Assembly (NCBI RefSeq): GCF_002303885.1
Contig: NZ_MRCM01000011.1
Span: 124,001-188,000, forward strand
Length of the DNA: 64,000 nt
Direction of reading: 5' to 3'
From: Flavobacterium sp. ACN2
GTDB taxonomy: Bacteria; Bacteroidota; Bacteroidia; Flavobacteriales; Flavobacteriaceae
A model generated the notes under the pieces. It was given only the letters and a program-made list of their open reading frames with translations. It did not search any database and was not told where the DNA came from. Shown piece by piece: positions 4,718 through 39,177 of this stretch (the stretch's first letter is position 1; each line of letters starts with the position of its first letter). The translations under genes were made by a program, and so were the position numbers.

Positions 4718-5377
4718 ATGGCACTTAGTAAAGAAGATATAGCAAAACGAATTGCAAAAGAAGTAAAAGACCGTTATTTTGTAAATCTTGGAATTGGGAT
4801 TCCGACTTTGGTCGCAAATTATGTTCGAGAGGATATAGCGGTTGAATTCCAAAGTGAAAATGGAGTTCTCGGAATGGGGCCTTTTCCTTTTGAAGGAGAA
4901 GAAGATGCAGATGTGATCAATGCAGGAAAACAAACTATTACAACACTTCCGGGTGCAAGTTTCTTTGATTCGGCTTTCAGTTTTGGAATGATTCGTAGCC
5001 AAAAAGTAGATTTGACAATTCTAGGAGCGATGGAAGTTTCTGAAAACGGAGACATCGCAAACTGGAAAATTCCAGGTAAAATGGTAAAAGGAATGGGGGG
5101 CGCAATGGATTTGGTGGCTTCCGCCGAAAATATCATCGTTGCCATGATGCACGTAAACAAAGCAGGTGAGTCAAAAATCTTAAAAAGATGCACTTTGCCA
5201 TTGACTGGAGTAGGATGCGTTAAAAAGGTTGTAACAGAGCTTGCAGTTCTAGAAGTAACCGAAAAAGGTTTTAAGCTCTTAGAACGAGCGCCAGGTGTCT
5301 CAGTCGATCACATCATCGCCTCAACCGAAGCCGATTTGATTATTGAAGGAGAAATTCCTGAAATGGATATCAGCTAA
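4718..5377 (+). CDS. scoB: 3-oxoacid CoA-transferase subunit B
   Basis: Beta subunit of the class I CoA-transferase, carrying the catalytic glutamate that forms the CoA thioester. Glu47 in the motif SENGVLGMGP (46-55) is the active-site residue. The 219-residue length is typical, as is the N-terminal NLGIGIPTLVANYV. It pairs with scoA at 2945 and the two together should form the heteromer. The present distance from scoA means scoB must be read through the beta-lactamase gene or use its own promoter, possibly within the right-hand direct repeat. A strong terminator follows 30 nt after the stop. Confidence 0.93.
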   Translation: MALSKEDIAKRIAKEVKDRYFVNLGIGIPTLVANYVREDIAVEFQSENGVLGMGPFPFEGEEDADVINAGKQTITTLPGASFFDSAFSFGMIRSQKVDLTILGAMEVSENGDIANWKIPGKMVKGMGGAMDLVASAENIIVAMMHVNKAGESKILKRCTLPLTGVGCVKKVVTELAVLEVTEKGFKLLERAPGVSVDHIIASTEADLIIEGEIPEMDIS

Positions 5378-5406
5378 AAAAATATTTTTTTCTAAAAAAA
5401 CCGATC

Positions 5407-5438
5407 AAGGCCAGCTTTTAAAAGAGCTGGCCTTTTTT
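5407..5438 (+). terminator. intrinsic terminator after scoB
   Basis: AAGGCCAGCT (5407-5416) pairs with AGCTGGCCTT around an 8-nt loop and is followed by a run of six T. It closes the scoA-bla-scoB segment. Confidence 0.9.
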
Positions 5439-5439
5439 G

Positions 5440-5747
5440 TAGGAATTAATTAAAGGATTTATTGCTATTGATATTAATAAATTATATCAGATTCAAAACT
5501 TATTTTCAAATATAAGTAGTTATTAATCAGTGAAATAATTATTTTTTAAGGCATTTTCTTACGAGATTATTATGGTTTGTTAAATAAAAATGGAATTAAT
5601 GTAAAAAATGTTGCTTTTTATCGATTAAAGACATATTTAATCGATTATCTAACATAAATAAAATATTTTTACACAAAAATAAAGTATTTACCTACATTAA
5701 ATATTTTGTTTGTAATCCATTTAACCAAAATTAAATACCACATTATT
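5440..5747. other. 308-bp AT-rich intergenic region
   Basis: No open frame or hairpin of note. It is unusually AT-rich, with several ATCGATT/TTAATCGATT stretches (near 5620-5645), and should hold the promoter of the secreted protease. The nearest -7-like string is TATTTTG near 5703, which deviates from TAnnTTTG. Confidence 0.5.
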
Positions 5748-8531
5748 ATGGAAAGAAAATTACCCAAGATTATGGCGTCAGCCGTTATTATTCTTACATT
5801 TTCAGCGCCTGTATTTGCTCAGAATACAGACAAGCGGATAAGTCAGAAAAATTTATCAGAAAATGGACAACCGAGTCTAATCACTTTTAGTGATAAATCC
5901 ACCTACAAGGGAACAGATTACAATACTGTTTTTAAAGAGCAACTTGGACTAAAGGATAACCAATCTTTTTTGAAAGTTAAAACTGAATCAGACAGAGAGG
6001 GGTTTACTCATGAAAAGTTTCAGTTGTATGAACAAGGAATTAAAGTAGAATTTGCCAATTATACATTACATTCTAAAGAAGGCAAATTGGTTTCTATGAA
6101 TGGTGAGTTTTATGCTTTTAATAATGTAAAAACTACTCCAAAATTATCAAGTCAGGATGCATTTGCTAAAGCGATTGCTTACACGGGAGCAAAAGAATAC
6201 TTATGGGAAAAACCCGAAGATGCCGCTGCAATGGATTATGAAAAACCAAAAGGGGAATTGGTTTTATTACCAGATATGGAAGAACAGGGACAGGATAGAA
6301 AATCAGACAAAGTTCGATTGGCTTATAAGTTTGATATCTATGCTACGAATCCGTTGAGCAGAGGTGATCTCTATATCGATGCTGAAACTGGAAATGTTTT
6401 GTTTTATAATGCTACAATAAAACACCTTGGAGAATATAGTCACGGAGGAAAATTGGAGTCTGCGAAAGCAAAGCAAGAGGTAGCATCTAATGCAAAAGTT
6501 GCAATTGTTGCAGCAAATGCAGCGACACGTTATAGCGGAACTCAGACCATTCAGACTACTCTAAGCGGATCTTCTTATATTTTATCTGATGGAACTCGCG
6601 GAAATGGAATTCAAACCTATAATTCTGCCAGAACAGCGACATACCCAACAACCAATTTCACCGATGCTGACAATAACTGGACAGCTGCTGAGTATAATAA
6701 TACAAATAAAGATAATGGAGCATTAGATGCACATTGGGGTGCTGAAATGACATATGATTATTGGTCTGCTGTTCATGGAAGAAACAGTTATGACAATGCT
6801 GGAGCAAAAATTAGAAGTTATGTTCACTACAATTTAGTAGCTGCTGGATATCCAAATAACAATAATGCATTCTGGAACGGAAGTGTTATGACTTATGGCG
6901 ACGGAACAGGAACTGGAGGATTTGATATCTTGACGTCAATAGATGTTGCTGGACATGAAATAGGACATGCGGTTTGTACTTATACAGCAAATCTTGCTTA
7001 TCAAAAAGAATCAGGAGCAATGAATGAGGGTTTCTCTGATATTTGGGGAGCTTGTATCGAATATCGTGCTGCACCAACAAAATCGACATGGTTAGTGGGA
7101 GAAGATATTGAAAGAAGATCAGGGCATCTTGCTTTGCGCTCTATGAGTAATCCAAAATCTGAGGGGCAACCAGATACTTATGGAGGAACTAATTGGGTGA
7201 GCCAAAGCTGTACACCCACTAGTAGTAATGATTATTGCGGCGTTCATACCAATTCTGGAGTTTTGAATCATTGGTTTTATATTTTATCAGTTGGTAAATC
7301 AGGAACAAATGATATTGGAAGCACCTATAATGTGACTGGTATAACTATCGATAAAGCTGCAAAAATTGCCTATCGTTTAGAAAGTGTGTATTTAACCGCA
7401 AATTCTACTTATGCAAATGCAAGGACATCAGGAATACAATCTGCAATAGATTTGTATGGTGCAGGTTCGGCTGAAGTTATAGCAACAACCAATGCTTTTT
7501 TTGCAGTAGGTATTGGCGCAGCTTATGTAGGATCTACTGATACTGTTGCGCCTACAGCTCCAACAAGTCTTGCAGCTTCGGGCACTACGGGAACAACGAC
7601 TAATTTATCCTGGACAGCCTCAACAGATAATGTTGCTGTTACAGGGTATGATATTTACCAAGGAACAACATTAAAAGGTTCGTCTGCAACAACTAGTTAT
7701 ACCGTAACTGGTTTAACAGCATTAACAGCTTATAGTTTTAGTGTAAAAGCTAAAGATGCGGCAGGAAATGTTTCGACAGCGAGTAATACAGTAAATGTTA
7801 CAACTACTTCTGCGGGATTAACATATTGTACATCTCAGGGTAATAGTACGGCAGACGAAAGAATTGGTAAAGTTGTATTTGGAACAATCAACAATACATC
7901 TACAGGAACAGCGGGTTATGAAAATTACACCTCAATTTCGGCAAATGCAACAAGAGGAACTGCATATACAATTACGATCACACCGAGCTGGACATCTACA
8001 GTTTACAGTGAAGGATATGCTGTATTTATAGATTACAATCAAGATGGTGATTTTGCCGATTCTGGTGAAACGGTTTGGACAAAAGCGACATCAACAGCAA
8101 CTTCGGCATCTGGAACTATTACAATTCCGGCAACAGCAACTCTTGGGACAACAAGACTTAGAGTTTCTATGAAATACAATGGAGTTCCAACATCTTGCGA
8201 AAGTTTTTCTTATGGACAGGTCGAAGATTATTCGATAAACATAACAGCTTTAGGACCAATTGTGAATGAAGAACTTGTTGCGGGATTGATTGAGACTAAT
8301 GAAAATTCTGAATTTGTATTATATCCAAATCCTGTTACAAATGAGCTAAATGTTTCATTTTTAAACAATAAAGGATATACATTTAGAATTACAAATGTTT
8401 TAGGTCAGCAAATTAGTAAAGGTGAACTTTCTGAAAGCCCTATAGATGTAAGCCTGTTAAGTACGGGAATTTACATTATAGAATTGAACAACGGCACAAA
8501 AAGAATCGTTAAGAAATTCGCTAAAAAATAA
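5748..8531 (+). CDS. secreted thermolysin-like (M4) metalloprotease with FN3, GEVED and T9SS sorting domains
   Basis: Extracellular zinc endopeptidase of 927 residues. I prefer the ATG at 5748 to an upstream TTG at 5706 because it gives a clean signal peptide ending near VFAQ (residue 25). Order: signal; FTP/PepSY-type inhibitory propeptide (about 30-230); M4 catalytic domain with HEIGH (His403, Glu404, His407) and third ligand Glu427 in NEGFSD, the same 24-residue spacing as in thermolysin; a fibronectin type III domain (about 600-690); a GEVED domain (about 720-835) with FIDYNQDGDF; and a C-terminal T9SS type A sorting domain starting at LYPNP and ending in KKFAKK. The last domain directs export across the outer membrane by the same machinery GldH belongs to. 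Monocistronic, with a terminator directly after. Confidence 0.95.
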   Translation: MERKLPKIMASAVIILTFSAPVFAQNTDKRISQKNLSENGQPSLITFSDKSTYKGTDYNTVFKEQLGLKDNQSFLKVKTESDREGFTHEKFQLYEQGIKVEFANYTLHSKEGKLVSMNGEFYAFNNVKTTPKLSSQDAFAKAIAYTGAKEYLWEKPEDAAAMDYEKPKGELVLLPDMEEQGQDRKSDKVRLAYKFDIYATNPLSRGDLYIDAETGNVLFYNATIKHLGEYSHGGKLESAKAKQEVASNAKVAIVAANAATRYSGTQTIQTTLSGSSYILSDGTRGNGIQTYNSARTATYPTTNFTDADNNWTAAEYNNTNKDNGALDAHWGAEMTYDYWSAVHGRNSYDNAGAKIRSYVHYNLVAAGYPNNNNAFWNGSVMTYGDGTGTGGFDILTSIDVAGHEIGHAVCTYTANLAYQKESGAMNEGFSDIWGACIEYRAAPTKSTWLVGEDIERRSGHLALRSMSNPKSEGQPDTYGGTNWVSQSCTPTSSNDYCGVHTNSGVLNHWFYILSVGKSGTNDIGSTYNVTGITIDKAAKIAYRLESVYLTANSTYANARTSGIQSAIDLYGAGSAEVIATTNAFFAVGIGAAYVGSTDTVAPTAPTSLAASGTTGTTTNLSWTASTDNVAVTGYDIYQGTTLKGSSATTSYTVTGLTALTAYSFSVKAKDAAGNVSTASNTVNVTTTSAGLTYCTSQGNSTADERIGKVVFGTINNTSTGTAGYENYTSISANATRGTAYTITITPSWTSTVYSEGYAVFIDYNQDGDFADSGETVWTKATSTATSASGTITIPATATLGTTRLRVSMKYNGVPTSCESFSYGQVEDYSINITALGPIVNEELVAGLIETNENSEFVLYPNPVTNELNVSFLNNKGYTFRITNVLGQQISKGELSESPIDVSLLSTGIYIIELNNGTKRIVKKFAKK

Positions 8532-8552
8532 AATAATAATACTATAAAAAGT

Positions 8553-8580
8553 AAAAAACCGCCTACTTGGGCGGTTTTTC
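8553..8580. terminator. bidirectional terminator between protease and outer-membrane protein gene
   Basis: AAAAACCGCC pairs with GGGCGGTTTTT around a short loop; A-run on the left and T-run on the right allow use from both converging genes. Confidence 0.85.
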
Positions 8581-8640
8581 TTTTTCAAAATCTTAGAAAC
8601 TTAGAAACTTAGGATCTCAGTATCTTAGAAACTTTAAAAA

Positions 8641-9162
8641 CTATAAATTAAATGAAGCTCCTAAACTAAAAGTAGCTTGATTATTCAAATGATAAAAACG
8701 ATCATCGCTTGAACTGTATTTTGCAATTGGGAATCCGATTTCTGTGAAAACACCAAATCCTTCTGTGAAGAAATAACGGCCTCCAACATGACCTCCGAAA
8801 TTACGTAAACCTAAGCTTAATCCAGGGTATACGTCCAATTCTTTTACTCCAATTACACTAGATAAGTTAGCATTAATTCTTGCTTTTGCATCAAAACGAT
8901 CCCCAAAATCAGGTTTAGCAGTACCAGACGCTCCATTAGGAAAACTGTAATAATAAGTGTCTACTCCTAATAAGTAGTTAGAGACAAAACCAAAAGAGAA
9001 ATTTTCTCCTAAACCAAAATCAACAGAACCTTGAATTCCAGAACCACCATCTTGCAAATTAGCTCCTACGTTTACTTTAATATCTCCCTTTCCTTTAAAA
9101 GCTTCTTGAGCATTAACAAATCCGAATGTCACTAAAAATACAAGTGTAATAACCTTTTTCAT
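8641..9162 (-). CDS. small outer-membrane beta-barrel protein
   Basis: 173 residues with a signal peptide (1-18, ending FVNAQ). The mature part is a series of alternating hydrophobic/polar strands rich in Gly and aromatics (for example SFGFVSNYLLG, PGLSLGLRNFGGHVGGRYFF), ending in ATFSLGASFNL, a typical C-terminal beta-signal ending in an aromatic-x-hydrophobic pattern. About eight strands can be drawn. This predicts a small porin-like barrel of the type usually annotated as outer membrane beta-barrel protein. No specific function is recognisable. It converges on the protease gene across a shared terminator. Confidence 0.75.
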   Translation of the reverse strand: MKKVITLVFLVTFGFVNAQEAFKGKGDIKVNVGANLQDGGSGIQGSVDFGLGENFSFGFVSNYLLGVDTYYYSFPNGASGTAKPDFGDRFDAKARINANLSSVIGVKELDVYPGLSLGLRNFGGHVGGRYFFTEGFGVFTEIGFPIAKYSSSDDRFYHLNNQATFSLGASFNL

Positions 9163-10086: not shown

Positions 10087-11169
10087 ATGTCTGAAACACC
10101 AACATATCGCAAAATTATCCATATTGATATGGATGCATTTTACGCATCGGTAGAACAGATGGACAATCCGGAATTAAGAGGCAAACCGGTAGCAGTTGGA
10201 GGTTCTGAAAATCGAGGTGTAGTTTCGGCTGCAAGTTACGAAGCCAGAAAGTTTGGCGTTCGTAGTGCCATCAGCGGGGTTTTAGCAAAAAAATACTGCC
10301 CGGACATTATCTTCGTCAGACCCAGATTTGATCGTTACAAGGAAATTTCATCCAAGATTCATAAAATCTTTCATGATTATACTGATTTAGTCGAGCCTCT
10401 TTCGCTTGACGAAGCTTACTTGGACGTTACCAAAAACAAAAAAGGAAATCCTAGCGCAAGTCTTTTGGCACAGGAAATTAGGCAAAGAATTTTTAATGAA
10501 GTAGGGTTGACGGCTTCGGCGGGAATTTCGGTCAATAAATTTGTGGCTAAAATTGCCAGCGATTATAACAAACCAAACGGACAAAAAACGGTAAATCCCG
10601 ACGAGGTAGAAGCTTTTCTGGAGGATCTTCCCATTCGTAAATTTTACGGAGTTGGAAAAGTAACTACAGAAAAAATGTATCAGCTCGGAATTTTTACAGG
10701 AACCGATTTGAAAAGCAAATCTCTAGAGTTTTTAGAAAAGCACTTCGGAAAATCGGGAACATTTTATTACCATGTGGTTCGAGGCATTCATAATAGCGAA
10801 GTAAAATCTTCACGAATTACCAAATCTGTTGCTGCAGAACATACTTTTGATGTGAATTTGTCTTCGGAGATTTTTATGATGCAACAGTTGGAGCGTATTG
10901 CAACTTCGCTAGAGAAACGTCTTCAAAGGCATAACATTTCTGGAAAAACGATTACGCTCAAAATCAAATACAGCGATTTTTCGCAGCAGACGAGGAGTAA
11001 AACGCTTCCCTATTTTATTTCTGATAAAAGTCTGATTATGGAAAACGTTGAGGAATTATTGTACCAGGAAAAAATGAAAGATTCAGTACGATTGCTCGGA
11101 ATTTCGTTGAGCAATTTAAATAACGAGGTAAAAAAAGCGGTGGTAGTACAGCTTAAATTTACTTTTTAA
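10087..11169 (+). CDS. dinB: DNA polymerase IV (Y-family)
   Basis: Error-prone translesion polymerase of 360 residues. Catalytic carboxylates are Asp14 (in IHIDMDAFYASVE) and Asp108-Glu109 (in SLDEAYLDV); YEARKFGVRSA (51-61) and the helix-hairpin-helix ASAGISVNKFVAKIASD are intact. The steric-gate position is aromatic (FYAS, 18-21). The C-terminus QLKFTF resembles a beta-clamp binding peptide of the QLxLF type, at the place where other Pol IV proteins carry it. The gene stands alone, divergent from the metallophosphoesterase, and may be translated from a leaderless mRNA. No LexA-like palindrome was recognised upstream. Confidence 0.96.
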   Translation: MSETPTYRKIIHIDMDAFYASVEQMDNPELRGKPVAVGGSENRGVVSAASYEARKFGVRSAISGVLAKKYCPDIIFVRPRFDRYKEISSKIHKIFHDYTDLVEPLSLDEAYLDVTKNKKGNPSASLLAQEIRQRIFNEVGLTASAGISVNKFVAKIASDYNKPNGQKTVNPDEVEAFLEDLPIRKFYGVGKVTTEKMYQLGIFTGTDLKSKSLEFLEKHFGKSGTFYYHVVRGIHNSEVKSSRITKSVAAEHTFDVNLSSEIFMMQQLERIATSLEKRLQRHNISGKTITLKIKYSDFSQQTRSKTLPYFISDKSLIMENVEELLYQEKMKDSVRLLGISLSNLNNEVKKAVVVQLKFTF

Positions 11170-11775: not shown

Positions 11776-11896
11776 TTTTGCCGCAAAGGCACTAAGACAC
11801 AAAGATGTTTTTTAAAGAGAAAAAAATAAAGCTATCCGTTAGGGATAGCTTTATTTTTATAAAAAACTTTGCGTCTTAGTGCCTTTGTGGCAAAAC
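11776..11896. repeat. interspersed inverted repeat around a terminator
   Basis: Left arm 11776-11804 (begins TTTTGCCGCAAAGGCAC) and right arm 11868-11896 are reverse complements with 27 of 29 bases matching. Enclosed is a second perfect hairpin. The same 'GCCnCAAAGGCAC..AGACnCAAAG' words recur elsewhere in the window (near 52625 and 57255), so this is an interspersed repeat family rather than a gene-specific signal. Confidence 0.85.
11822..11859. terminator. bidirectional terminator between PAS gene and fumarase
   Basis: AAAAATAAAGCTATCC pairs with GGATAGCTTTATTTTT around a 5-nt loop. It serves both the PAS gene and the converging fumarase gene. Confidence 0.88.
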
Positions 11897-13581: not shown

Positions 13582-14328
13582 TTACTCTGCAGCGTTAAAT
13601 TGATCAAACGTCATCTTTTTTTCAAAGTACGGTTTGTCTTTGGCAGAGAGTAACATTTTTTTCCATTTATTATCTTTTAATTCGAAAGCTATTGAGTCTG
13701 AGTGCTTAAGGATGCCCATGTCCATGTTTTCATCTTCGTCCGCAGGTATAAACGCAACAGTTTTGCAATAAAAGGATTTTGGATCAGATTTAGTAGAAGT
13801 ATTTACAATTTCAACCCAGCTTCCCCAGCCGCTGTCGGTCATAGAGCTCCATTGGTGTACCAATTGTAATCCGCTGTTTTTTAGATAATACAAGTAGTTG
13901 TCATGCGCATAGCCACAAGCAGGAAATCCAACGGTGATTTGTATGAATGGCGAATTTTTAGAAGTTTCAGATGTTAATCCGTAAGAAGCCGTCCACTCAG
14001 AATCTTTCTCAAAACCTTTTATAGCAACTTTAGAAGAGGCGCTTTTGGTTTTATTCTGATAAAAGTCTAATCGGTATTTTACCGTAACGATACTGTCCTT
14101 GTCTGCTTGCTGATCTACCAAATGCGCCAGTATAAAATCTGTAGAAGATTCTGTTCCGTCCGTGTAAATGGCTACAGTATCAGTTTTAATAATCTTTTCA
14201 TCAGCAGAAACCTCTAATGTCTCTTGCGGTTCAATGATTTCTGCTATAGGTGGCGCAGCATCTGTAGGTTTTGTTTTTTGACATCCGATAAAAATAAGTA
14301 GGGAGAAAAATAGAGTGTGGATTTTCAT
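13582..14328 (-). CDS. putative lipoprotein of unknown function
   Basis: 248 residues. Signal peptide of a lipoprotein with lipobox IFIGC (Cys16). After a Pro/Thr-rich linker the protein has a predominantly beta domain with a repeated pattern of charged and aromatic residues (YLYYLKNSGLQLVHQWSSMTDSGWGSWVEI). No family is recognised. Its ATG is preceded by an AT-rich leader; the next gene upstream on the same strand ends 217 nt away, so it is probably transcribed separately. Confidence 0.75.
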   Translation of the reverse strand: MKIHTLFFSLLIFIGCQKTKPTDAAPPIAEIIEPQETLEVSADEKIIKTDTVAIYTDGTESSTDFILAHLVDQQADKDSIVTVKYRLDFYQNKTKSASSKVAIKGFEKDSEWTASYGLTSETSKNSPFIQITVGFPACGYAHDNYLYYLKNSGLQLVHQWSSMTDSGWGSWVEIVNTSTKSDPKSFYCKTVAFIPADEDENMDMGILKHSDSIAFELKDNKWKKMLLSAKDKPYFEKKMTFDQFNAAE

Positions 14329-14545
14329 CTTTGGGGAGATATTTAATTGTTTTTTTAATTCTAGCGAAACCTCTAAAGTATAAAATTATGAGATTTTTTT
14401 GAAGAAAAAAGAAAAAGAAGCACATGAAAAATAAGTTTAATTACTTTCAAGGCTTCTTTTAAAACTTTAATTAATTAGTCTTTATTCTTTGTAATAAAGG
14501 TATTTAGAGTGTTTTTTTTAAGGATAAAAAAATGTTCTTAATTTT

Positions 14546-15985
14546 TTAAAAAAACCAAGTTGCTACAAAAATGGCTGTAATTACACAGATTAAATCTACC
14601 AAAAGCATTGTACCCAAAGCGTAACGAGTGTTTTTGATGTTTACAGATCCAAAATAAACCGCAATTACGTAGAAAGTACTCTCGGCGCTGCATTGGAAAA
14701 TACTGCTTAGTCTTGCAGTTAAAGAATCGGCTCCAAAGGTATTCATCGAATCAATTAGAAAACCTCTTGAACCTGCAGAACTAAATGGACGAAGCATCGC
14801 AACTGGCAATGCATTCGTAATTTCTTTGCTTACACCTAAATTCGAAAAGACAAATCCGATTGCATCGCTGATAATTTCGAATAAACCGCTGTTTCTGAAT
14901 AGTGAGATTGCAACCAGCATTCCTAAAACATAAGGAAAAATCGTAACTCCAGTTTTAACTCCGTTATTGGCGCCAACTACAAAAGTGTCGAAAACAGTGG
15001 TTTCTGCATCTTTGAATTTTTTTTCATGTATGAATGAGAATATTAGAGTAAATGCAATAATGGCAATTAAGATTAATCCAGAAAGGTTAGAAGTAAAATA
15101 GTTTTTTCCGATTAAGTCCAAATGATTCACATACATCAGCAAACTTACAATTGCAGCAATTAAAACCATCAAACCAATAAGAAGCGAAGCACTTTTAAAA
15201 TTGATTTTTTGTTTGATTCCAACAATCAGGAAAGCCGCAATGGTTCCGATGAAAGATGTTATAATACAAGGCAGCATAACATCGGCAGGATTACTGGCGT
15301 TTGCCGCAGCACGGTAACCAATAATTGAAGTTGCAATTAAAGTCAAACCAGAAGCATGAAGGCACATAAACATGATTTGCGCATCACTCGCTTTGTCTTT
15401 TTCGGGATTTATTTCTTGTAAACTTTCCATGGCTTTCAATCCGAATGGCGTTGCAGCAGAATCTAATCCCAAGAAATTGGCAGCAAAATTCAAAGTCATG
15501 TAAGATATCGAAGGGTGATTTTTAGGAATACTCGGGAAAACTTTCACAAAAACCGGACTCAAAGCTTTGGCCAATTTTCCTGAAGCTCCAGAAACGATTA
15601 AAAGTTCCATCAAACCACAGAAAAAAGCTAAATAAGCAATAAGAGGCAAAATTAGATCAACCAAAGTGCTTTTACAAGTTGGCAATAAACCATCAGATTT
15701 TTGAAGTCCGCTGTAAATTTTTACGGTTTTGTTTTTGTAAACGTAAGTAGTGTCGGCATTAAGCGTATCACGATTGATAATCATGGTCTGATCTGGCGCT
15801 TTTTTAATGCTGTCTTTTAAGAAAGCAGGAAGTTCTTCGACGTATTTTTCAGAAACCAAAATTGGATCGTCTTTCTTTCCATTCAAAATAGAATCAATGG
15901 TATACGTGTTGGCAGTAAACAAACTGACTACAATAAAAACAATCGAAGAAATAAAAATCGCTAACCAAAATCTGCTTAATACCAT
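14546..15985 (-). CDS. fused SpmA/SpmB-like nucleoside-recognition (Gate) membrane protein
   Basis: Integral membrane protein of 479 residues with roughly 8-10 hydrophobic segments. Two Gate-type (nucleoside recognition) halves are visible: one near 135-240 with LNFAANFLGLDSAATPFGLKAM, as in spore maturation protein A, and one from about 335 with GANNGVKTGVTIFPYVLGMLVAISLFRNSG-like sequence, as in SpmB. In endospore formers these are separate adjacent genes; Bacteroidota usually carry the fusion. A long periplasmic loop (about 30-85) follows the first membrane helix. Substrate unknown; the spore name is historical and does not imply sporulation here. Confidence 0.85.
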   Translation of the reverse strand: MVLSRFWLAIFISSIVFIVVSLFTANTYTIDSILNGKKDDPILVSEKYVEELPAFLKDSIKKAPDQTMIINRDTLNADTTYVYKNKTVKIYSGLQKSDGLLPTCKSTLVDLILPLIAYLAFFCGLMELLIVSGASGKLAKALSPVFVKVFPSIPKNHPSISYMTLNFAANFLGLDSAATPFGLKAMESLQEINPEKDKASDAQIMFMCLHASGLTLIATSIIGYRAAANASNPADVMLPCIITSFIGTIAAFLIVGIKQKINFKSASLLIGLMVLIAAIVSLLMYVNHLDLIGKNYFTSNLSGLILIAIIAFTLIFSFIHEKKFKDAETTVFDTFVVGANNGVKTGVTIFPYVLGMLVAISLFRNSGLFEIISDAIGFVFSNLGVSKEITNALPVAMLRPFSSAGSRGFLIDSMNTFGADSLTARLSSIFQCSAESTFYVIAVYFGSVNIKNTRYALGTMLLVDLICVITAIFVATWFF

Positions 15986-16067
15986 AATTGTAATTTTTTG
16001 TAAATGTAATTATTTAGCAATAATAAGCATAAAGATTTTATATAATGAAACGGTAATTTGAGTTTAT

Positions 16068-16240
16068 ATGTCGCCTCGTTGGGGGCTTTTTGAAATAGGG
16101 AAATTTCATTTGCTATAAATATTTCGCTCTTCCAAAGCTCTTTTTGAATTTTAGTCAGGTAAATAGCTCTGGAAGAGCGATATATTTATAGAAATCGATT
16201 AGACAATAATTAAAAAGCCCAGCGGGGCAAAATCTAATTT
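16068..16240. repeat. nested inverted repeat, about 170 bp
   Basis: Outer arms: GCCTCGTTGGGGGCTTTTT near 16072-16092 pairs imperfectly with the AAAAAGCCCAGCGGGGC region at 16212-16228. Inner arms: 16112-16139 (TATAAATATTTCGCTCTTCC) and 16171-16194 (GGAAGAGCGATATATTTATA) are near-perfect complements. The whole would form a long cruciform or RNA hairpin in the gap upstream of the SpmA/B gene. It fills most of the 272-bp gap and contains no gene. Confidence 0.8.
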
Positions 16241-16257
16241 ATCTATTGTAAAATGGA

Positions 16258-17328
16258 CTATACAATCACCACTTTGGTTTCCAAATAGGTTTCAAAAGCT
16301 TTAATGCCTTCAAACAAAATTTCTTTTTTCGAACTTTCGGTTTCAGTAAAAAATTCCGTTTCAATTTTGGCGTAATCTTTTTTTATGGTTCGTTTCCAGA
16401 TTCCGATTACTTTTCCGTTTTCTAAAATTATGGGTTTAAAGATGCCATTATTGGTAAAAACTTTCGATTGATGTTCGGTGTTAAAAGAAGCTTCGCGTGT
16501 TTTATACGAAATTAAAATTTCATCAAAAGCAGGAAGAAAATGTACGCCTTCGCGAAAATTTCCCTCATCTCTTAGCCCTTTTTTGAACCAATATTGTTGA
16601 TTATCAATAGTAATATTTTCTAATTGCAACTCTATTGCGTTAATTATTTTCTTGCATATTGTAGCAGGAAATCCTGACCACCATGAAAAATCATATATTG
16701 TTGCTGGGCCATGACTTTCAAAATAGCGTAAGGCAAGTTTGGCTAATGCTTCTTCTGTTGACAATTTGTTTTTTGGTTTAGAAACTCTTTCTTCTAGCAG
16801 CGCATAAGTAATTTGTTTGCCTTTCATTTTACCATTGCAAACTAAACCATCCAATTCGGCATTCATCATTACAATAACAGGGGATAAATCTCCAGCTTTT
16901 TTCTGAATGTTAAGTTCCTGCATGATTTCCTCTCGTGTTAAATGATTATTTCCTGCTAGAAGTTTTTCTATGGCGGCATTGACCTGATCGAATTTCTTTT
17001 CGTCAAAACCATGCTGTTTGGCCATTGTAGCAAAAAGGCGCTTTACTTGTGGCGAAGAAAGCTCCAGCATCCAATAAATATCATCAGGAGAAACAAAATG
17101 CCAAGTTGGACGCAGAATATGAGTTCGAATGATTTGACCTGAATTTATGGCTTCTTCTATTTCTTTTTCGCTTGAACTACAACGAGAACCAATTGCCCAT
17201 TTTGCCATTGCATAATCTTGAGCTTGCATAGCACCAAAATGCTTTACAATTTCTTGTGGAGAACATTGATTTTCCTGATAAAGCTTCTGAGAAGCCATAC
17301 GATAATGTGAAATTTCGGAATGAATCAT
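16258..17328 (-). CDS. winged-helix DNA-binding protein, AlkZ-like DNA glycosylase (HTH_42/YcaQ family)
   Basis: 356 residues of the HTH_42 superfamily, whose characterised members are DNA glycosylases for bulky N7-alkyl adducts and interstrand cross-links (Streptomyces AlkZ, E. coli YcaQ/AlkX). The N-terminus FGAMQAQDYAMAKWAIG contains Gln35-Ala-Gln37, the QxQ catalytic motif of the AlkZ branch rather than the QxD of AlkX. Also typical are RPTWHFVSPDDIYWML (about 95-110), YFESHGPATIYDFSWWSG and FLPAFDEILISYKTR. Downstream neighbours in the same orientation are a DEDDy exonuclease and Ogt alkyltransferase, which fits a DNA-damage role. Glycosylase activity is inferred from motif and family. 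Confidence 0.85.
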   Translation of the reverse strand: MIHSEISHYRMASQKLYQENQCSPQEIVKHFGAMQAQDYAMAKWAIGSRCSSSEKEIEEAINSGQIIRTHILRPTWHFVSPDDIYWMLELSSPQVKRLFATMAKQHGFDEKKFDQVNAAIEKLLAGNNHLTREEIMQELNIQKKAGDLSPVIVMMNAELDGLVCNGKMKGKQITYALLEERVSKPKNKLSTEEALAKLALRYFESHGPATIYDFSWWSGFPATICKKIINAIELQLENITIDNQQYWFKKGLRDEGNFREGVHFLPAFDEILISYKTREASFNTEHQSKVFTNNGIFKPIILENGKVIGIWKRTIKKDYAKIETEFFTETESSKKEILFEGIKAFETYLETKVVIV

Positions 17329-17425
17329 TTTTCAGTATTAATTTAAACCATAAAAGTTATACAAGTTCACATAAAAAATGACCTTAGTATCTTATCAACT
17401 CAGAACCTTAGCATCTAAAAAGAAG

Positions 17426-18139
17426 CTATACATGAATAATCTCATCATCAATTAACAAATCCTCTCGACGCAAGCGAAGAAAAACCTGCGCAACAGCAAT
17501 GGTGTCTTTTTCGCAATACGTAATAATTCGATCAATGTCTTTTTCGACATAATAGACGTGAGCAACCTGGCTTCCGTCAATATCGCCTTTTGGCGAAGGA
17601 ACTCCCAAAATCTTGGTTAGCAATTTTAGCGAAGTAAAATGCTTATAATCGCCAAATTTCCATAATTCGAGAGTATCGAGATGCGGAATTTCCCAAGGTT
17701 TTTTACCGAACAAATTCAATTTGTCGGGAATGGGCATTTGGTTGATGATCATTCTTCGGGCAATAAACGGAATGTCAAATTCTTTTGAATTATGTCCGCA
17801 AAGCAAATGCTGAGGCTGATTAAAATGATTGTTAACCAGATTCGAAAAATCTTTTAAGATTTTCTTTTCTTCACCAAAAAACGAAGTCACCCTAAAATTA
17901 CGAACATCTCCTTTGATGGTAAAAAAGCCAACAGAGATGCAGATTATCTTTCCGAACTCGGCCCAAATTCCCGCACGTTCGTAAAATTCTTCTGGAGAAA
18001 ATTCATCTTTTCGCTGATATTGTGTTTTCAAATCCCAAAGCGATTGCATTTCCGCGTCAAGCGAATTGAAGCTTTCTTCTTCGGGAACGGTTTCTATATC
18101 AAGAAATAAAATGTTATTGAGGTTTATTTTTTCAATCAT
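17426..18139 (-). CDS. predicted DEDDy 3'-5' exonuclease (PolB-like)
   Basis: 237 residues. The three exonuclease motifs are visible: Exo I LFLDIETVPE (Asp14, Glu16), Exo II HNSKEFDIPFI (Asp121) and Exo III YCEKDT (Tyr207, Asp211), which makes it DEDDy class, like the proofreading domain of family B polymerases but with no polymerase attached. Such proteins are annotated as 3'-5' exonuclease/ribonuclease H-like in Flavobacteria. It lies between the AlkZ-like glycosylase and ogt on the same strand, with gaps of about 97 and 86 nt. Substrate (DNA or RNA) is unproven. Confidence 0.88.
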   Translation of the reverse strand: MIEKINLNNILFLDIETVPEEESFNSLDAEMQSLWDLKTQYQRKDEFSPEEFYERAGIWAEFGKIICISVGFFTIKGDVRNFRVTSFFGEEKKILKDFSNLVNNHFNQPQHLLCGHNSKEFDIPFIARRMIINQMPIPDKLNLFGKKPWEIPHLDTLELWKFGDYKHFTSLKLLTKILGVPSPKGDIDGSQVAHVYYVEKDIDRIITYCEKDTIAVAQVFLRLRREDLLIDDEIIHV

Positions 18140-18225
18140 TTTTAAGACTTCTTAGATATTAGATAATTAGACTTGTATTTTTATGTTTTACAAATATGCG
18201 TAAAATTCTTACTATTTAAAAATCG

Positions 18226-18702
18226 TTAGAATAAACTTTGTTGTGCAGACGGACATTCGTGTTCCAAAAGCCATTTTTTGCGTGACAATCCGCCAGCATA
18301 TCCAGTTAAAGACCCATTTGTTCCAATAACGCGGTGACAGGGAACCACAATCCAAAGCGGATTTTTGCCATTTGCTGATGCTACAGCGCGAATTGCTTTT
18401 ACATCGCCCAATTTCTTGGTCTGGTCCATATAACTAACCGTTTTTCCGTAAGGAATTTCTAAAAGAGATTTCCAGACTTTCTGCTGGAATTCGGTTCCTT
18501 GTGGATTTAGTTTAAGATCAAAATCGGTTCTTTTCCCTTCAAAATATTCATTCAATTGTGAAACGGCTTCTTGTAAAACGGCTGGAATTTCCTTAGAAAC
18601 TTCATTTGTTCCAACATCGGAAACAGAAATTACCGAAATACCGTTTTCATCTCCAATGATTTTGGTGATTCCGAGAGGCGAATTGATGAAAACTGTTTCC
18701 AT
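18226..18702 (-). CDS. ogt: methylated-DNA-[protein]-cysteine S-methyltransferase
   Basis: Suicide repair protein that removes the alkyl group from O6-alkylguanine to its own cysteine. I chose the ATG at 18702 (METVFINSPLG), giving 158 residues; a frame extension to 18732 would add 10 unlikely residues. The active site is PCHRVIG with Cys122, preceded by the DNA-binding helix AIRAVASANGKNP and followed by GSLTGYAGGLSRKKWLLEHE. All family motifs are intact. Third gene of a same-strand group with an exonuclease and an AlkZ-like glycosylase. Confidence 0.95.
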   Translation of the reverse strand: METVFINSPLGITKIIGDENGISVISVSDVGTNEVSKEIPAVLQEAVSQLNEYFEGKRTDFDLKLNPQGTEFQQKVWKSLLEIPYGKTVSYMDQTKKLGDVKAIRAVASANGKNPLWIVVPCHRVIGTNGSLTGYAGGLSRKKWLLEHECPSAQQSLF

Positions 18703-18732
18703 GATTTTTGAGTTATAACCGTATAGAAGCAA

Positions 18733-18887
18733 AGGTCAATCGCAAAGTTCGCAAAGTTTTTTTAAATCATGTAAGTAATTTAAGTTTTTGTATAACGCTT
18801 TAAACGATTGTCACCCTGAGCGAGTCTAAGGCTTGTGAAAAATAATATATCCCTGACTTTGTTAAGTCTAGAAGCATAAAGAATCAA
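18733..18887. repeat. intergenic interspersed-repeat fragments
   Basis: Holds TCGCAAAGTTCGCAAAG (18738-18755) and a CACCCTGAGCGAGTCTAAGG box (near 18808-18830), variants of repeat words found in other gaps of this window. No gene seen. Confidence 0.55.
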
Positions 18888-19463
18888 TTAAAAAGTCATT
18901 AATAGTCCACAGTTTGATTCTTTGGCTTCTTCGTAAATCTCAATTAATTCTTCATAAGCTTGGATAACTTCTTTGTCTAAGCTCTCAGTCTCGAAGATAT
19001 TTATGAAGTTTTGTTTTAAACTTATTAGTTCTTTATGAATGCTAGAAATTTGCTGAGAGTCAATAAAACCAAGTCCCATTCTGCCTGGGTCTAAAGTAAA
19101 GTTTTCAGAATCTAATGATTTGCCAAGTATATAATATTCATTATTAAACTTAAGGTCTAATTCATCAAATGATTCTAATAATAATTCCCAGCTATAAGAT
19201 AACCCTAATTCTTCATCAGGATTATAATATTTTGTCATTGCAAAATCTGCTAGTTCTTGAATATCTTCGGTTTCTAACTCTTCTATCCATTCAGATGTAA
19301 GTTCTTCTCCTGAATAAGGTGACTTTAAATCGTTTAAATTTTGGTTTATAAAAGAAATTAACAATTTTTCGTTATCTGTTTCTCCAGCAGTAAGAATGAT
19401 TTCTGATAATTCTTTTGTGAATGCTGACGTATTAAACAAAAATGATTTGTGTTCCATTGACAT
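18888..19463 (-). CDS. hypothetical acidic protein
   Basis: 191 residues from the ATG at 19463; the frame is open to a TTG at 19490, and a second ATG follows at 19457. The protein is acidic, mostly helical, rich in Glu/Leu/Ser, with no signal peptide or membrane segment. Segments such as SEWIEELETEDIQELADFAM and KEVIQAYEELIEIYEEAKE look like amphipathic helices. I recognise no family. Its size and soluble, acidic make-up resemble immunity-type orphan proteins of Bacteroidota, but that is only a resemblance. Confidence 0.65.
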   Translation of the reverse strand: MSMEHKSFLFNTSAFTKELSEIILTAGETDNEKLLISFINQNLNDLKSPYSGEELTSEWIEELETEDIQELADFAMTKYYNPDEELGLSYSWELLLESFDELDLKFNNEYYILGKSLDSENFTLDPGRMGLGFIDSQQISSIHKELISLKQNFINIFETESLDKEVIQAYEELIEIYEEAKESNCGLLMTF

Positions 19464-19593
19464 GATTTTCGCGTTATAAATTTTTTGCAAAAATGTTTTA
19501 TGGATGTGTTTTTAATAGCCTCAATAAGATGTATTTGTATCACTTTAAGTTTAAATAAGGATTTTAACTTTACCAAGCCGGATATCTTAGAGT

Positions 19594-20415
19594 TTAATAA
19601 TTATCTAAACAGAATTTATAGTTCAAATAGTTTTCAATCTTTTCGCTAGAAACCACTTTTTTAATATTTGATTTTTCAGAATTGAATTTTGGTTCTGGCA
19701 AATTCATTTCGATCGCTTTTTGAGTATAGTATTCCTCTCTTGTTGGGTGAAAAGGTGCAACTGCATTAAAAACTTCATTCCATTTCGATTGATTTATGAT
19801 TTCGTCAATAATGCCAATACAGTCGTTTTGATGAATTAAATTGATTGGAGCATCAGGATTTTCTAAGTTTTCTTTTCCAGCTAAAAACTTTACAGGATGA
19901 CGATCTTCACCAATTAATCCGCCGAAACGCAGAATTGTAGTTTCAAATTTCTGATTTTCTTGAAGAAGCTTTTCTGCTAAAACTAACTGTTTGCCACTCT
20001 CAGTATCTGGATTTGGAATAGTTTCTTCTGTTACCAAACCATTTTCATCTCCATAAACCGATGTTGAACTTACAAAAAGGACTTTCTTAACCGTTGATTT
20101 TGCTATAAACGGAATCAAATTCTTGATTTTGTTTACAAATGTCATTTCGAGCGGAGTTGAGAAACTTTGATTGGCTCTTAATTTTGGCGGAATGTCTATG
20201 ATTAAGATTTCGCTTTCCGCTAAAAAATCAGTGGTGTTTTCAGAAACACTTTCACTTTCAACCGTTACTAAAAACGGATTTATTCCAGCATTTTCTAAAA
20301 TGGAAAGTTTATTTTCTGAAGTTGTAGATCCGTTTACCGAATTTCCTTTTGCAATTAATGCTTTTGCTAAAGGAAGCCCTAACCAGCCACAGCCAAGTAT
20401 ACTAATTTTTGTCAT
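19594..20415 (-). CDS. NAD(P)-binding SDR family protein, YeeZ-like
   Basis: 273 residues with an N-terminal Rossmann fold: MTKISILGCGWLGLPLAKAL carries the GxGxxG dinucleotide motif (8-13). Further marks of extended atypical SDR/YeeZ proteins are VLFVSSTSVYGDENGLVTEE and TILRFGGLIGEDRHPV. The classical YxxxK pair is not obvious in the expected place, as in other members of this atypical group. Reaction unknown. A perfect five-copy 8-bp tandem repeat lies 14 nt upstream of the ATG. Confidence 0.85.
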   Translation of the reverse strand: MTKISILGCGWLGLPLAKALIAKGNSVNGSTTSENKLSILENAGINPFLVTVESESVSENTTDFLAESEILIIDIPPKLRANQSFSTPLEMTFVNKIKNLIPFIAKSTVKKVLFVSSTSVYGDENGLVTEETIPNPDTESGKQLVLAEKLLQENQKFETTILRFGGLIGEDRHPVKFLAGKENLENPDAPINLIHQNDCIGIIDEIINQSKWNEVFNAVAPFHPTREEYYTQKAIEMNLPEPKFNSEKSNIKKVVSSEKIENYLNYKFCLDNY

Positions 20416-20428
20416 TTTTTCTTTTTAA

Positions 20429-20468
20429 GTTGCAAAGTTACAAAGTTACAAAGTTGCAAAGTTGCAAA
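20429..20468. repeat. 8-bp tandem repeat, five copies, directly upstream of the YeeZ-like gene
   Basis: Five back-to-back octamers GTTRCAAA (G,A,A,G,G at the fourth base), 40 bp without interruption. On the minus strand they sit 14-53 nt upstream of the ATG at 20415, where promoter spacing or leader length would change with copy number. Flanking sequence also carries 'GCAAAG' words of the interspersed repeats. Confidence 0.9.
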
Positions 20469-20530
20469 GAAAATTAAACTTAGCGTCTTGGCGACTTTGC
20501 AAGATTAAAAGTCACAGAGAGATTCTTTGG

Positions 20531-20980
20531 TTACAAAGTTAAAGTAAATCGGACTTTGTCTTTTCCTTTTGCGCCCATTCTGTTGTAAAATTTAATAGCT
20601 CTTGTATTGAATTCTGGAGTTTGCCATTGTATGTTGACACAATTGTTTTGTTTTCCGATTTCTTTTAATTTCTCGATTAAGATTTCGCCAATTCCAAAAC
20701 CTCTCGTTTCTTCTTCCAAAAACAAACAATCCATGTAAAGAAAGTCTTGCGCATTCCAGGTTGAAAAATCAAAAGTGTAAGAGGCATAACCGACAATGGT
20801 TTCTTCTGTAGCGACAACCAAACAATATAGTTTTGGGTTTGGACCAAATAAAGCATTTTTTAAACCTTTTTCTTTTCCTTCAGGAGAAAATTCGGCTTTT
20901 TCAAATTCGGCATGTTTCTGAATTAAAACCAATAGTTTAGGCAAGTCTGTGATTTCGCAGTTTCTTATTGAATATTCCAT
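20531..20980 (-). CDS. GNAT family N-acetyltransferase (spermidine/diamine acetyltransferase-like)
   Basis: 149 residues forming a single GNAT fold. Typical marks are RNCEITDLPKLLVLI at the start, LYMDCLFLEEETRGFGIGEIL with the acetyl-CoA pyrophosphate loop (RGFGIG), and the C-terminal QTPEFNTRAIKFYNRMGAK. The DLFV/DCLF core and NxRAIxFY tail are closest to the diamine acetyltransferase group. Its start overlaps the 3' end of the LysR-type regulator gene by 16 nt, so the two are translationally coupled; the acceptor substrate is not predictable. Confidence 0.85.
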   Translation of the reverse strand: MEYSIRNCEITDLPKLLVLIQKHAEFEKAEFSPEGKEKGLKNALFGPNPKLYCLVVATEETIVGYASYTFDFSTWNAQDFLYMDCLFLEEETRGFGIGEILIEKLKEIGKQNNCVNIQWQTPEFNTRAIKFYNRMGAKGKDKVRFTLTL

Positions 20981-21867
20981 TGCAAGTTGATTTCGTTTTG
21001 TAAAAAGCTGATAAAATGATAGAAATAATCAGGATAACTTTCATTGGTGCGTGTTGCAATGAAGTGCTTTCTTTTTAAACCATTTTTTCCAACTTTTACT
21101 GCTTTTAGCGAAGTGGTTTTTAAATATGGCGTAAATGCCCATTTTGCCATCGACATGACTCCCATATCGGCTTTTACCATTTCTAGAGAAGCTTCGGTTA
21201 ATGGCATCGGAGTTATTTTCTTCGGACTTACTTTGGCTGGAGCCAAAAGAAACTGATGAATAGTAACGGTTTCTAACGGAAGCGAATGAATTATAAAATG
21301 CTCGTTAATAAAATCTTCTGCAACGACATATTTTTTATCTGCCCAAGCATGATTTTCAGAAACTACCATTACCACCTCGTCCTGAAAAAGCTCTTGATAT
21401 TTTATATTGCTGTCTTTTATCTGATCACTTACAATGGCAATGTCAATTGTGTTTTCTAGAAGTTTTTGCAATGGGATATGAGTCGCTTCGGCTACTATTT
21501 TCAATTCGACATTTGGGTATAAAAGATGAAATTGCTTTAAAACGGAAGGAAGCCAATGGTAACTTGAGAAACATTCAGTACTGATTCGGATTTCGCCATG
21601 TTCGCCAAAGACCATTTGTTTGATTTGAGTTTCGGCTTCGGCAAGTTTGTTCAGGATTTCATTGGCCAGTTCGTAGATTTTTTCGCCTGCTTTTGTAAGT
21701 ACTAGTTTTTTATTTGTTCTTAAAAAAATGGCTGTTCCCAATTGATATTCGGCTTCTTTAAGCTGATGACTCAAAGCCGATTGTGTCAAATGAAGTTTGT
21801 CGATCGCTTTTGTGATGCTTCCTTCTTCGACAATTGCTTTTATCAATTTTAAGTGGCGTATTTCCAT
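20965..21867 (-). CDS. LysR-type transcriptional regulator
   Basis: 300 residues from the ATG at 21867 (MEIRHLKLIKAIVEEGSIT); an in-frame TTG at 21888 would add seven residues. N-terminal winged helix-turn-helix with the recognition segment LTQSALSHQLKEAE, then a LysR substrate-binding domain from about 90. The overall look (HLKLIKAIVEEGSITKAIDKLHLTQSALS) is that of the MetR-like subgroup. It is divergent from the rhodanese gene at 22014 (146-bp gap), the common arrangement for a LysR regulator and its target, and overlaps the downstream GNAT gene by 16 nt. The inducer is unknown. Confidence 0.9.
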   Translation of the reverse strand: MEIRHLKLIKAIVEEGSITKAIDKLHLTQSALSHQLKEAEYQLGTAIFLRTNKKLVLTKAGEKIYELANEILNKLAEAETQIKQMVFGEHGEIRISTECFSSYHWLPSVLKQFHLLYPNVELKIVAEATHIPLQKLLENTIDIAIVSDQIKDSNIKYQELFQDEVVMVVSENHAWADKKYVVAEDFINEHFIIHSLPLETVTIHQFLLAPAKVSPKKITPMPLTEASLEMVKADMGVMSMAKWAFTPYLKTTSLKAVKVGKNGLKRKHFIATRTNESYPDYFYHFISFLQNEINLQWNIQ

Positions 21868-38961: not shown

Positions 38962-39177
38962 ATTTAGTTCTCGCAAAGTCGCGGAGATGCAAAGTTTTTT
39001 TAAGCCAAAATTGTTAGTATTGTTTGTCATTTCGAGGAACGAGAAATCTTCGCGAGTAGCTCGACAAAAATTGACGCTTTTAGGAACGGAGTTACTTGCG
39101 AAGATTTCTCCTTACGTCGAAATGACAAGAAAACCATGAAAAACTTTGCGCCTCTGCGACTTTGCGAGATTATTTCA
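38962..39177. repeat. composite nested inverted repeat, about 215 bp
   Basis: Outer arms (38962-39001 and 39139-39177) both read CTCGCAAAGTCGCnGAG..GCAAAG when compared as reverse complements. Inner arms 39025-39062 and 39089-39127 share TGTCATTTCGA and GAGAAATCTTCGC with a few mismatches. The whole could extrude as one long hairpin. The same words recur in gaps near 18740, 20430, 40840 and 57255. Confidence 0.85.

Follow-up and report, generated by a model that had tools for sequence, protein, structure and literature searches.

An ogt-exonuclease-alkZ gene order in Flavobacterium: probably three independent repair enzymes, with an AlkZ-type (QxQ) glycosylase gene at a fixed site

Three genes for DNA repair proteins follow one another on the minus strand of a 64 kb stretch of a Flavobacterium genome of about 5.4 Mb (the window, which here means that whole stretch of 64,000 nucleotides). 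We consider, with a probability of roughly 0.7, that they specify three independently acting repair enzymes which lie in an inherited order, and not the members of one pathway. The three-gene locus itself is real and is no chance assembly. Its features, in the direction of transcription, are:

18764..18785, minus strand: second copy (4 mismatches) of a 22-base box, 5' of ogt; most probably one terminus of a dispersed repeat
18226..18702, minus strand: ogt, O6-alkylguanine-DNA alkyltransferase, 158 aa (Pfam PF01035/PF02870, TIGR00589, PDB 4wxd, PCHR)
17426..18139, minus strand: exo, predicted DEDDy-type 3'-5' exonuclease of the DNA_pol_B_exo2 / RNase_H_2 kind, 237 aa (PF10108, PF13482, conserved residues)
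17345..17366, minus strand: the 22-base box, immediately upstream of alkZ; most probably one terminus of a dispersed repeat
16258..17328, minus strand: alkZ, AlkZ-like (AZL, QAQ) DNA glycosylase, 356 aa (PF06224, 5uuj by sequence and fold, QAQ, tree)
14546..15985, minus strand: SpmA/SpmB-like nucleoside-recognition (Gate) membrane protein (PF07670), at the far edge of the alkZ site

The initial annotation had named the three genes correctly and had noted their common orientation and short gaps; according to the ORF list 86 bases separate ogt from exo and 97 separate exo from alkZ. It gave them from left to right, which is the reverse of the order of transcription (ogt, exo, alkZ). SpmA/SpmB is the name that we take to belong to the membrane protein family matching PF07670. 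The nearest named relative among the matches listed is F. tyrosinilyticum, with a glycosylase 94% identical to that of the window; F. johnsoniae is represented there by strain CI04. None of four proteins of the locus matched a PADLOC defence-system model at E 0.001. By title, no paper on this locus was found in the open-licence PMC literature, and nothing was found there linking AlkZ to Bacteroidetes or HTH_42 to Bacteroidota. The gene dinB (DNA polymerase IV, 10087-11169) lies on the opposite strand, at a distance of about 5 kb from the three genes. After it comes a gene with a PAS domain; the best match of this gene in NCBIfam, below the cut-off, is to a blue-light receptor family.

The product of alkZ matches PF06224 (AlkZ-like) with 197.8 bits against a Pfam cut-off of 25.9; the family is chiefly known for resolving DNA cross-links. 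Its QAQ (Q35, Q37) aligns with the QAQ of Streptomyces AlkZ (PDB 5uuj, E 3.3e-17) and is present in 80/80 named relatives (78 by pattern, 2 by eye), so that the QxQ motif of the AlkZ branch had been read correctly at the outset. An AlphaFold model of the protein (pLDDT 72, residues 255–306 mostly poor) retrieved AlkZ 5uuj as its first Foldseek match (E 2.9e-13, TM 0.63/0.60, but with an rmsd of 11.9) and AlkX 9zd6 as its second (rmsd 12.2). The structure alignments held 25 of the 81 glycosylases and 22 of the 81 exonucleases. In a FastTree phylogeny of 41 sequences, rooted on YcaQ and with AlkZ entered as a partial sequence, the AZL side (25 sequences) forms one group with a support of 0.891; Streptomyces AlkZ falls among the QxQ sequences, YcaQ among those with QxD. 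Motif, fold and tree position are thus held in common with S. sahachiroi AlkZ (AZL subfamily, HTH_42/PF06224), to which the window protein is 18% identical in the fold alignment.

E. coli YcaQ/AlkX (YQL) belongs to the same superfamily, which is described as dividing into QxQ/HxQ (AlkZ-like) and QxD (YcaQ/AlkX-like) groups (PMC9040887; PMC13303869). An identity with YcaQ/AlkX was entertained and is ruled out by the QAQ of the window protein, YcaQ having QxD and the QxD proteins forming another branch. Judged by its sequence, the window glycosylase belongs with the AlkZ (QxQ) and not with the YcaQ/AlkX (QxD) type. For sixteen of 38 Bacteroidota loci the best alignment is with E. coli YcaQ; all are QxD, and these proteins sit on a branch of their own, apart from the window type. 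For the other 22 it is with the window protein, and 19 of them carry QxQ or HxQ. Two of the three in which the motif is unreadable (L006 and L058) are the same gene fetched twice, with an internal stop codon, and the third (L051) is a second, divergent copy in genome G225. By motif and alignment, then, the Bacteroidota hold both QxQ and QxD glycosylases.

DEDDy exonucleases are marked by four acidic residues together with a YxxxD motif III. In the window protein these are D14, E16, D122 and Y208-x3-D212, invariant in 81/81 sequences (window plus 80 relatives) and equally present in 22/22 of a broader sample with identities as low as 65%; the four carboxylates that had been reported at first are therefore sound. 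The Pfam scores are above cut-off for both DNA_pol_B_exo2 (PF10108, 56.9 against 24) and RNase_H_2 (PF13482, 50.3 against 22). Against the PDB, phmmer gave no match at E 0.1 and the best profile match, to a DNA polymerase chain, had an E of 0.12; an AlphaFold model from 22 close sequences reached a pLDDT of 40 and was unusable. The assignment as a predicted DEDDy-type 3'-5' exonuclease is accordingly made from the Pfam matches and residues D14, E16, D122, Y208 and D212. With the PF10108/PF13482 exonucleases the protein shares the DEDDy residues and the scores over cut-off; it differs in having no solved close relative.

Of the trio Ogt alone is named by NCBIfam (TIGR00589), which has no model for the glycosylase or the exonuclease. 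It matches MGMT PF01035 (112.8 against a cut-off of 27), PF02870 (39.6 against 21) and PDB 4wxd (E 4.3e-37), and its translation contains the PCHR active site that had been reported for it. PCHR and both MGMT domains are shared with bacterial Ogt proteins such as 4wxd, and we saw no notable difference. The window genome has two further MGMT-domain genes elsewhere, as well as one partial match to DNA_alkylation (PF08713, 27.9 bits against a cut-off of 21), which indicates that the genome has alkylation repair outside this site as well.

All three genes are under purifying selection, with median NG86 dN/dS values, calculated for sequence pairs with dS 0.1–0.9 only, of 0.130 for alkZ (177 pairs), 0.028 for exo (292) and 0.069 for ogt (848). 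The initial annotation had proposed that conservation of the trio be checked, and the neighbourhood is indeed conserved, so that the refutation it had named, lack of a conserved neighbourhood, does not apply. The order ogt-exo-alkZ is kept in 80/80 nearest named relatives (the best 80 of at least 563), a sample which is nearest by design and silent on distant relatives (78 Flavobacterium, 2 Flavobacteriaceae bacterium). In these loci exo and alkZ are separated by 3 to 1373 bases, ogt and exo by 35 to 641; the genes never overlap, and an extra ORF of at least 90 aa lies inside a trio gap in 9/80. Across the genus PF06224 is found in 33/150 genomes, in 32 of these as a single match, and alkZ stands directly after exo on the same strand in 29/33. 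The remaining four (G219, G220, G224 and G257) have the PF06224 gene elsewhere, that of G219 being of the QxD kind.

This conservation is a first point in favour of the main rival to independent action, namely a true alkylation-damage operon in which Ogt and AlkZ would take different lesions and the exonuclease would trim 3' ends or cross-link remnants. Three genes on one strand, with short gaps and in an order kept by every one of the nearest relatives, are what such a functional link would also produce. We nevertheless regard the operon as unlikely.

Conservation of the trio is largely limited to a single group of closely related Flavobacterium species. The trio is present in all 27 genus genomes with an exo at least 90% identical to that of the window; the two that bring the total to 29 have an exo 85–86% identical, a range in which alkZ is mostly missing; at 84% identity or above, 29 of 82 genus genomes have the trio. 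Exo itself occurs in 143/150 genus genomes and an Ogt-like protein, among the matches listed, in 149/150. Among the same matches ogt lies upstream of exo, on the same strand and within 10 kb, in 116/143 genomes, a count that leaves aside one exo fragment (G176) and the ogt matches ranked below the first from G149, these being distant or Ada-type. In a family sample of about one genome per genus PF06224 is present in 6/149 genomes, two of them Flavobacterium, and in a phylum sample it is over cut-off in 51/395.

Over the Flavobacteriaceae, 107 of the 121 genomes that have both ogt and exo carry them on the same strand and no more than 8 kb apart (omitting three exo fragments, two of G103 and one of G126), with a gap of 1.0–1.7 kb in 62 of the 107. 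Twenty family loci were read for their neighbouring genes. A beta-lactamase-fold hydrolase gene sits between ogt and exo in 13/20; an ORF of 356–383 aa precedes ogt in 19/20 (a CNNM/CBS transporter in the one run through Pfam), and one of 557–563 aa follows exo in 11/20 (an ABC transporter in the one run through Pfam). Linkage at this frequency amid unrelated genes means that old synteny explains the adjacency of ogt and exo. It also speaks against the operon, as most species have the ogt-exo linkage but lack alkZ, and the hydrolase gene often lies in between. On the other side of alkZ the SpmAB-like gene is kept as tightly, being the next ORF in 77/80 relatives. Where a dedicated repair operon would hold repair genes, we found unrelated genes on both sides and, in many species, in between.

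Ten genus loci without alkZ at this site bear on how the gene arrived. Exo is followed directly by the SpmAB-like gene in 7; in one an HNH protein gene intervenes, and in two other genes follow exo. Since exo and the SpmAB-like gene are neighbours in 7/10 of these loci, alkZ looks like a later insertion between them, made within the genus. Loss or transfer is possible too, given that the two trio genomes with an exo 85–86% identical resemble in this many genomes without alkZ. In other species the place after exo is taken by further genes of a repair or nuclease type, either two photolyase-type genes convergent to exo (L040, 649–3506) or an HNH protein gene (L046, 2679–3452).

Among 81 sequences the mean pairwise identity is 0.758 for alkZ, 0.932 for exo, 0.875 for ogt and 0.923 for SpmAB. 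AlkZ thus evolves faster than its exo, ogt and SpmAB neighbours, yet remains under purifying selection. Its pairwise distances correlate with those of exo (0.46, permutation maximum 0.23) and ogt (0.41, 0.23), and with those of SpmAB at 0.32, barely above the permutation maximum of 0.28. Inheritance of alkZ together with its neighbours is moderately supported by these values.

A second point that appeared to favour the operon, and counts to that extent against independence, is the 22-base box, which in the window stands 5' of both ogt and alkZ. It is found 5' of ogt in 37/80 relatives, 5' of alkZ in 38/80 and in both places in 20/80; elsewhere in these 80 loci there are four matches in two loci, and 15 loci carry the box in reverse orientation 5' of ogt. 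The window genome, however, has 9 matches over 800 kb, 6 of them as three inverted pairs facing apart, compared with 0, 1, 1, 3 and 5 matches for five shuffled boxes. A regulator site specific to ogt and alkZ was considered and seems unlikely, the box occurring elsewhere in the genome and mostly in inverted pairs. Most probably it forms one end of a dispersed repeat element. TAnnTTTG is a promoter motif of the Bacteroidota; upstream of alkZ it occurs in 10/80 regions, equal to shuffles (mean 10.2), and no promoter is called. Between 15900 and 19600 sigma-70-type sites are not above shuffles (10 against 13.9), and there are 4 terminator-like sites against 2.2 in shuffles. Rfam gave no match at 14000–21000.

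The intergenic regions hold other repeats, which we record here as observations in their own right. Degenerate period-8 tandem arrays (unit CWRAGNNN) lie at five places in the window, 8592–8628, 11784–11804, 11867–11887, 20433–20469 and 39144–39164; 20 Markov simulations produced none. All 43 arrays in 800 kb of the window genome are intergenic, and four-unit matches to CWRAGNNN in that genome number 257, against 23 for the reversed pattern. Among 31 genus genomes there are 152 to 288 four-unit matches in the five that are larger than 5 Mb and 0 to 58 in the other 26. An array is present after exo, within 500 bases 5' of alkZ, in 57/80 relatives; of the 174 arrays in the relatives 36 have the 22-base box within 120 bases downstream, many at this same alkZ site. 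Nothing on intergenic octamer repeats in Flavobacterium was found in the open-licence PMC literature. A dispersed 172-base palindrome occupies 16062–16233, between alkZ and the SpmAB-like gene. Its DNA folding z-score is -6.6. With 40 of 65 candidates scored, its full and partial matches in the window genome amount to 29 rows, counting its own position and both strands, at about 20 places.

The third point on the side of the operon comes from another locus of the genus. In L054 (Flavobacterium, 4875–9062) a QGQ AlkZ-like gene opens a close-packed run on one strand with gaps of 3 to 66 bases, followed by genes for an esterase, an FMN-binding protein, an Ada-type regulator/alkyltransferase and a PF09859 oxygenase, a family described by Pfam as acting on damaged DNA. 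From its gene content this run is a possible Ada operon. It suggests that QxQ-type glycosylases can join alkylation-repair operons, and it is one of 16 loci in which the PF06224 gene lies off-site (5 Flavobacterium from the genus search, 1 QxD Flavobacterium, 1 other family locus and 9 QxQ loci of other Bacteroidota). By tblastn at E 1e-5 none of the 16 has a match to the window exo, and L054 alone has an Ogt-like match.

The proposal of a small alkylation-repair locus thus holds as regards the identities of the proteins and the conservation of the trio; it is weakened in that PF06224 is absent from 117/150 genus genomes and that unrelated genes stand on both sides of and between the repair genes. 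The further suggestion that the exonuclease trims ends after base removal found no backing, as nothing that we found ties the exonuclease to base removal. As a pathway the trio has too little behind it to matter by itself.

Under the preferred reading of three independent enzymes, Ogt would move alkyl groups from O6-alkylguanine onto its own cysteine. The AlkZ-like protein would cleave the N-glycosidic bond of N7-alkyl purines and might possibly unhook cross-links. An AP endonuclease is the usual next enzyme after a monofunctional glycosylase, and the abasic site left here would presumably pass to one encoded elsewhere. The DEDDy protein would be a stand-alone 3'-5' exonuclease, near-universal in the family and tied to neither ogt nor alkZ. 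The ogt-exo order would be an old synteny of the family, to which alkZ was added within the genus, ahead of the SpmAB-like gene, and then kept.

The AZL kinship of the glycosylase raises another alternative, that it gives self-resistance or acquired resistance to one natural product, as do Streptomyces AlkZ and HedH4. The parts of PMC9040887 that deal with these genes tie QxQ glycosylases mostly to self-protecting antibiotic makers, and describe Streptomyces AZL genes as mainly multi-copy and often in or near biosynthetic clusters; AZL genes outside clusters are reported there as well, the AZL2 group never being near one. The QxQ motif, the grouping with AlkZ and the fact that alkZ is less conserved than the three genes it was compared with would suit this explanation. 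Unlike the Streptomyces AZL genes, however, the window-type gene is mostly single copy (one PF06224 match in 32/33 genomes) and at a fixed site, and no cluster is visible within the window; in copy number and fixed neighbourhood it resembles the Streptomyces YQL genes instead. Judged by ORF length, the 64 kb of the window contain no giant biosynthetic gene, the longest ORF (941 aa) being a thermolysin-like protease, while the relatives were read for about 6 kb on each side. We judge resistance to a single product to be improbable, more so than the operon. That the protein is a catalytically dead, DNA-binding regulator made of winged helices is scarcely credible: several of the weaker fold matches beyond AlkZ and AlkX (E above 0.001) are winged-helix proteins, but both motif glutamines are kept in 80/80 relatives and the dN/dS is 0.13.

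Taken as independent enzymes, the members of the trio look like ordinary repair proteins whose adjacency is mostly inherited gene order, and not like a dedicated repair machine. What is mildly surprising is to find a QxQ glycosylase, mostly single-copy and fixed, in a window that shows no toxin cluster. It is conceivable, and we put it forward tentatively at somewhat less than even odds, that the Bacteroidota carry a resident, mostly single-copy and fixed-site lineage of QxQ cross-link glycosylases which serves as a general defence against the genotoxins of other microbes. Such a lineage would break the split by which QxQ proteins belong to toxin makers and QxD proteins are general-purpose. 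The fixed enzyme in this set of Flavobacterium species would offer a clean test of whether the motif makes a specialist or whether a QxQ glycosylase may serve the general defence of a bystander.
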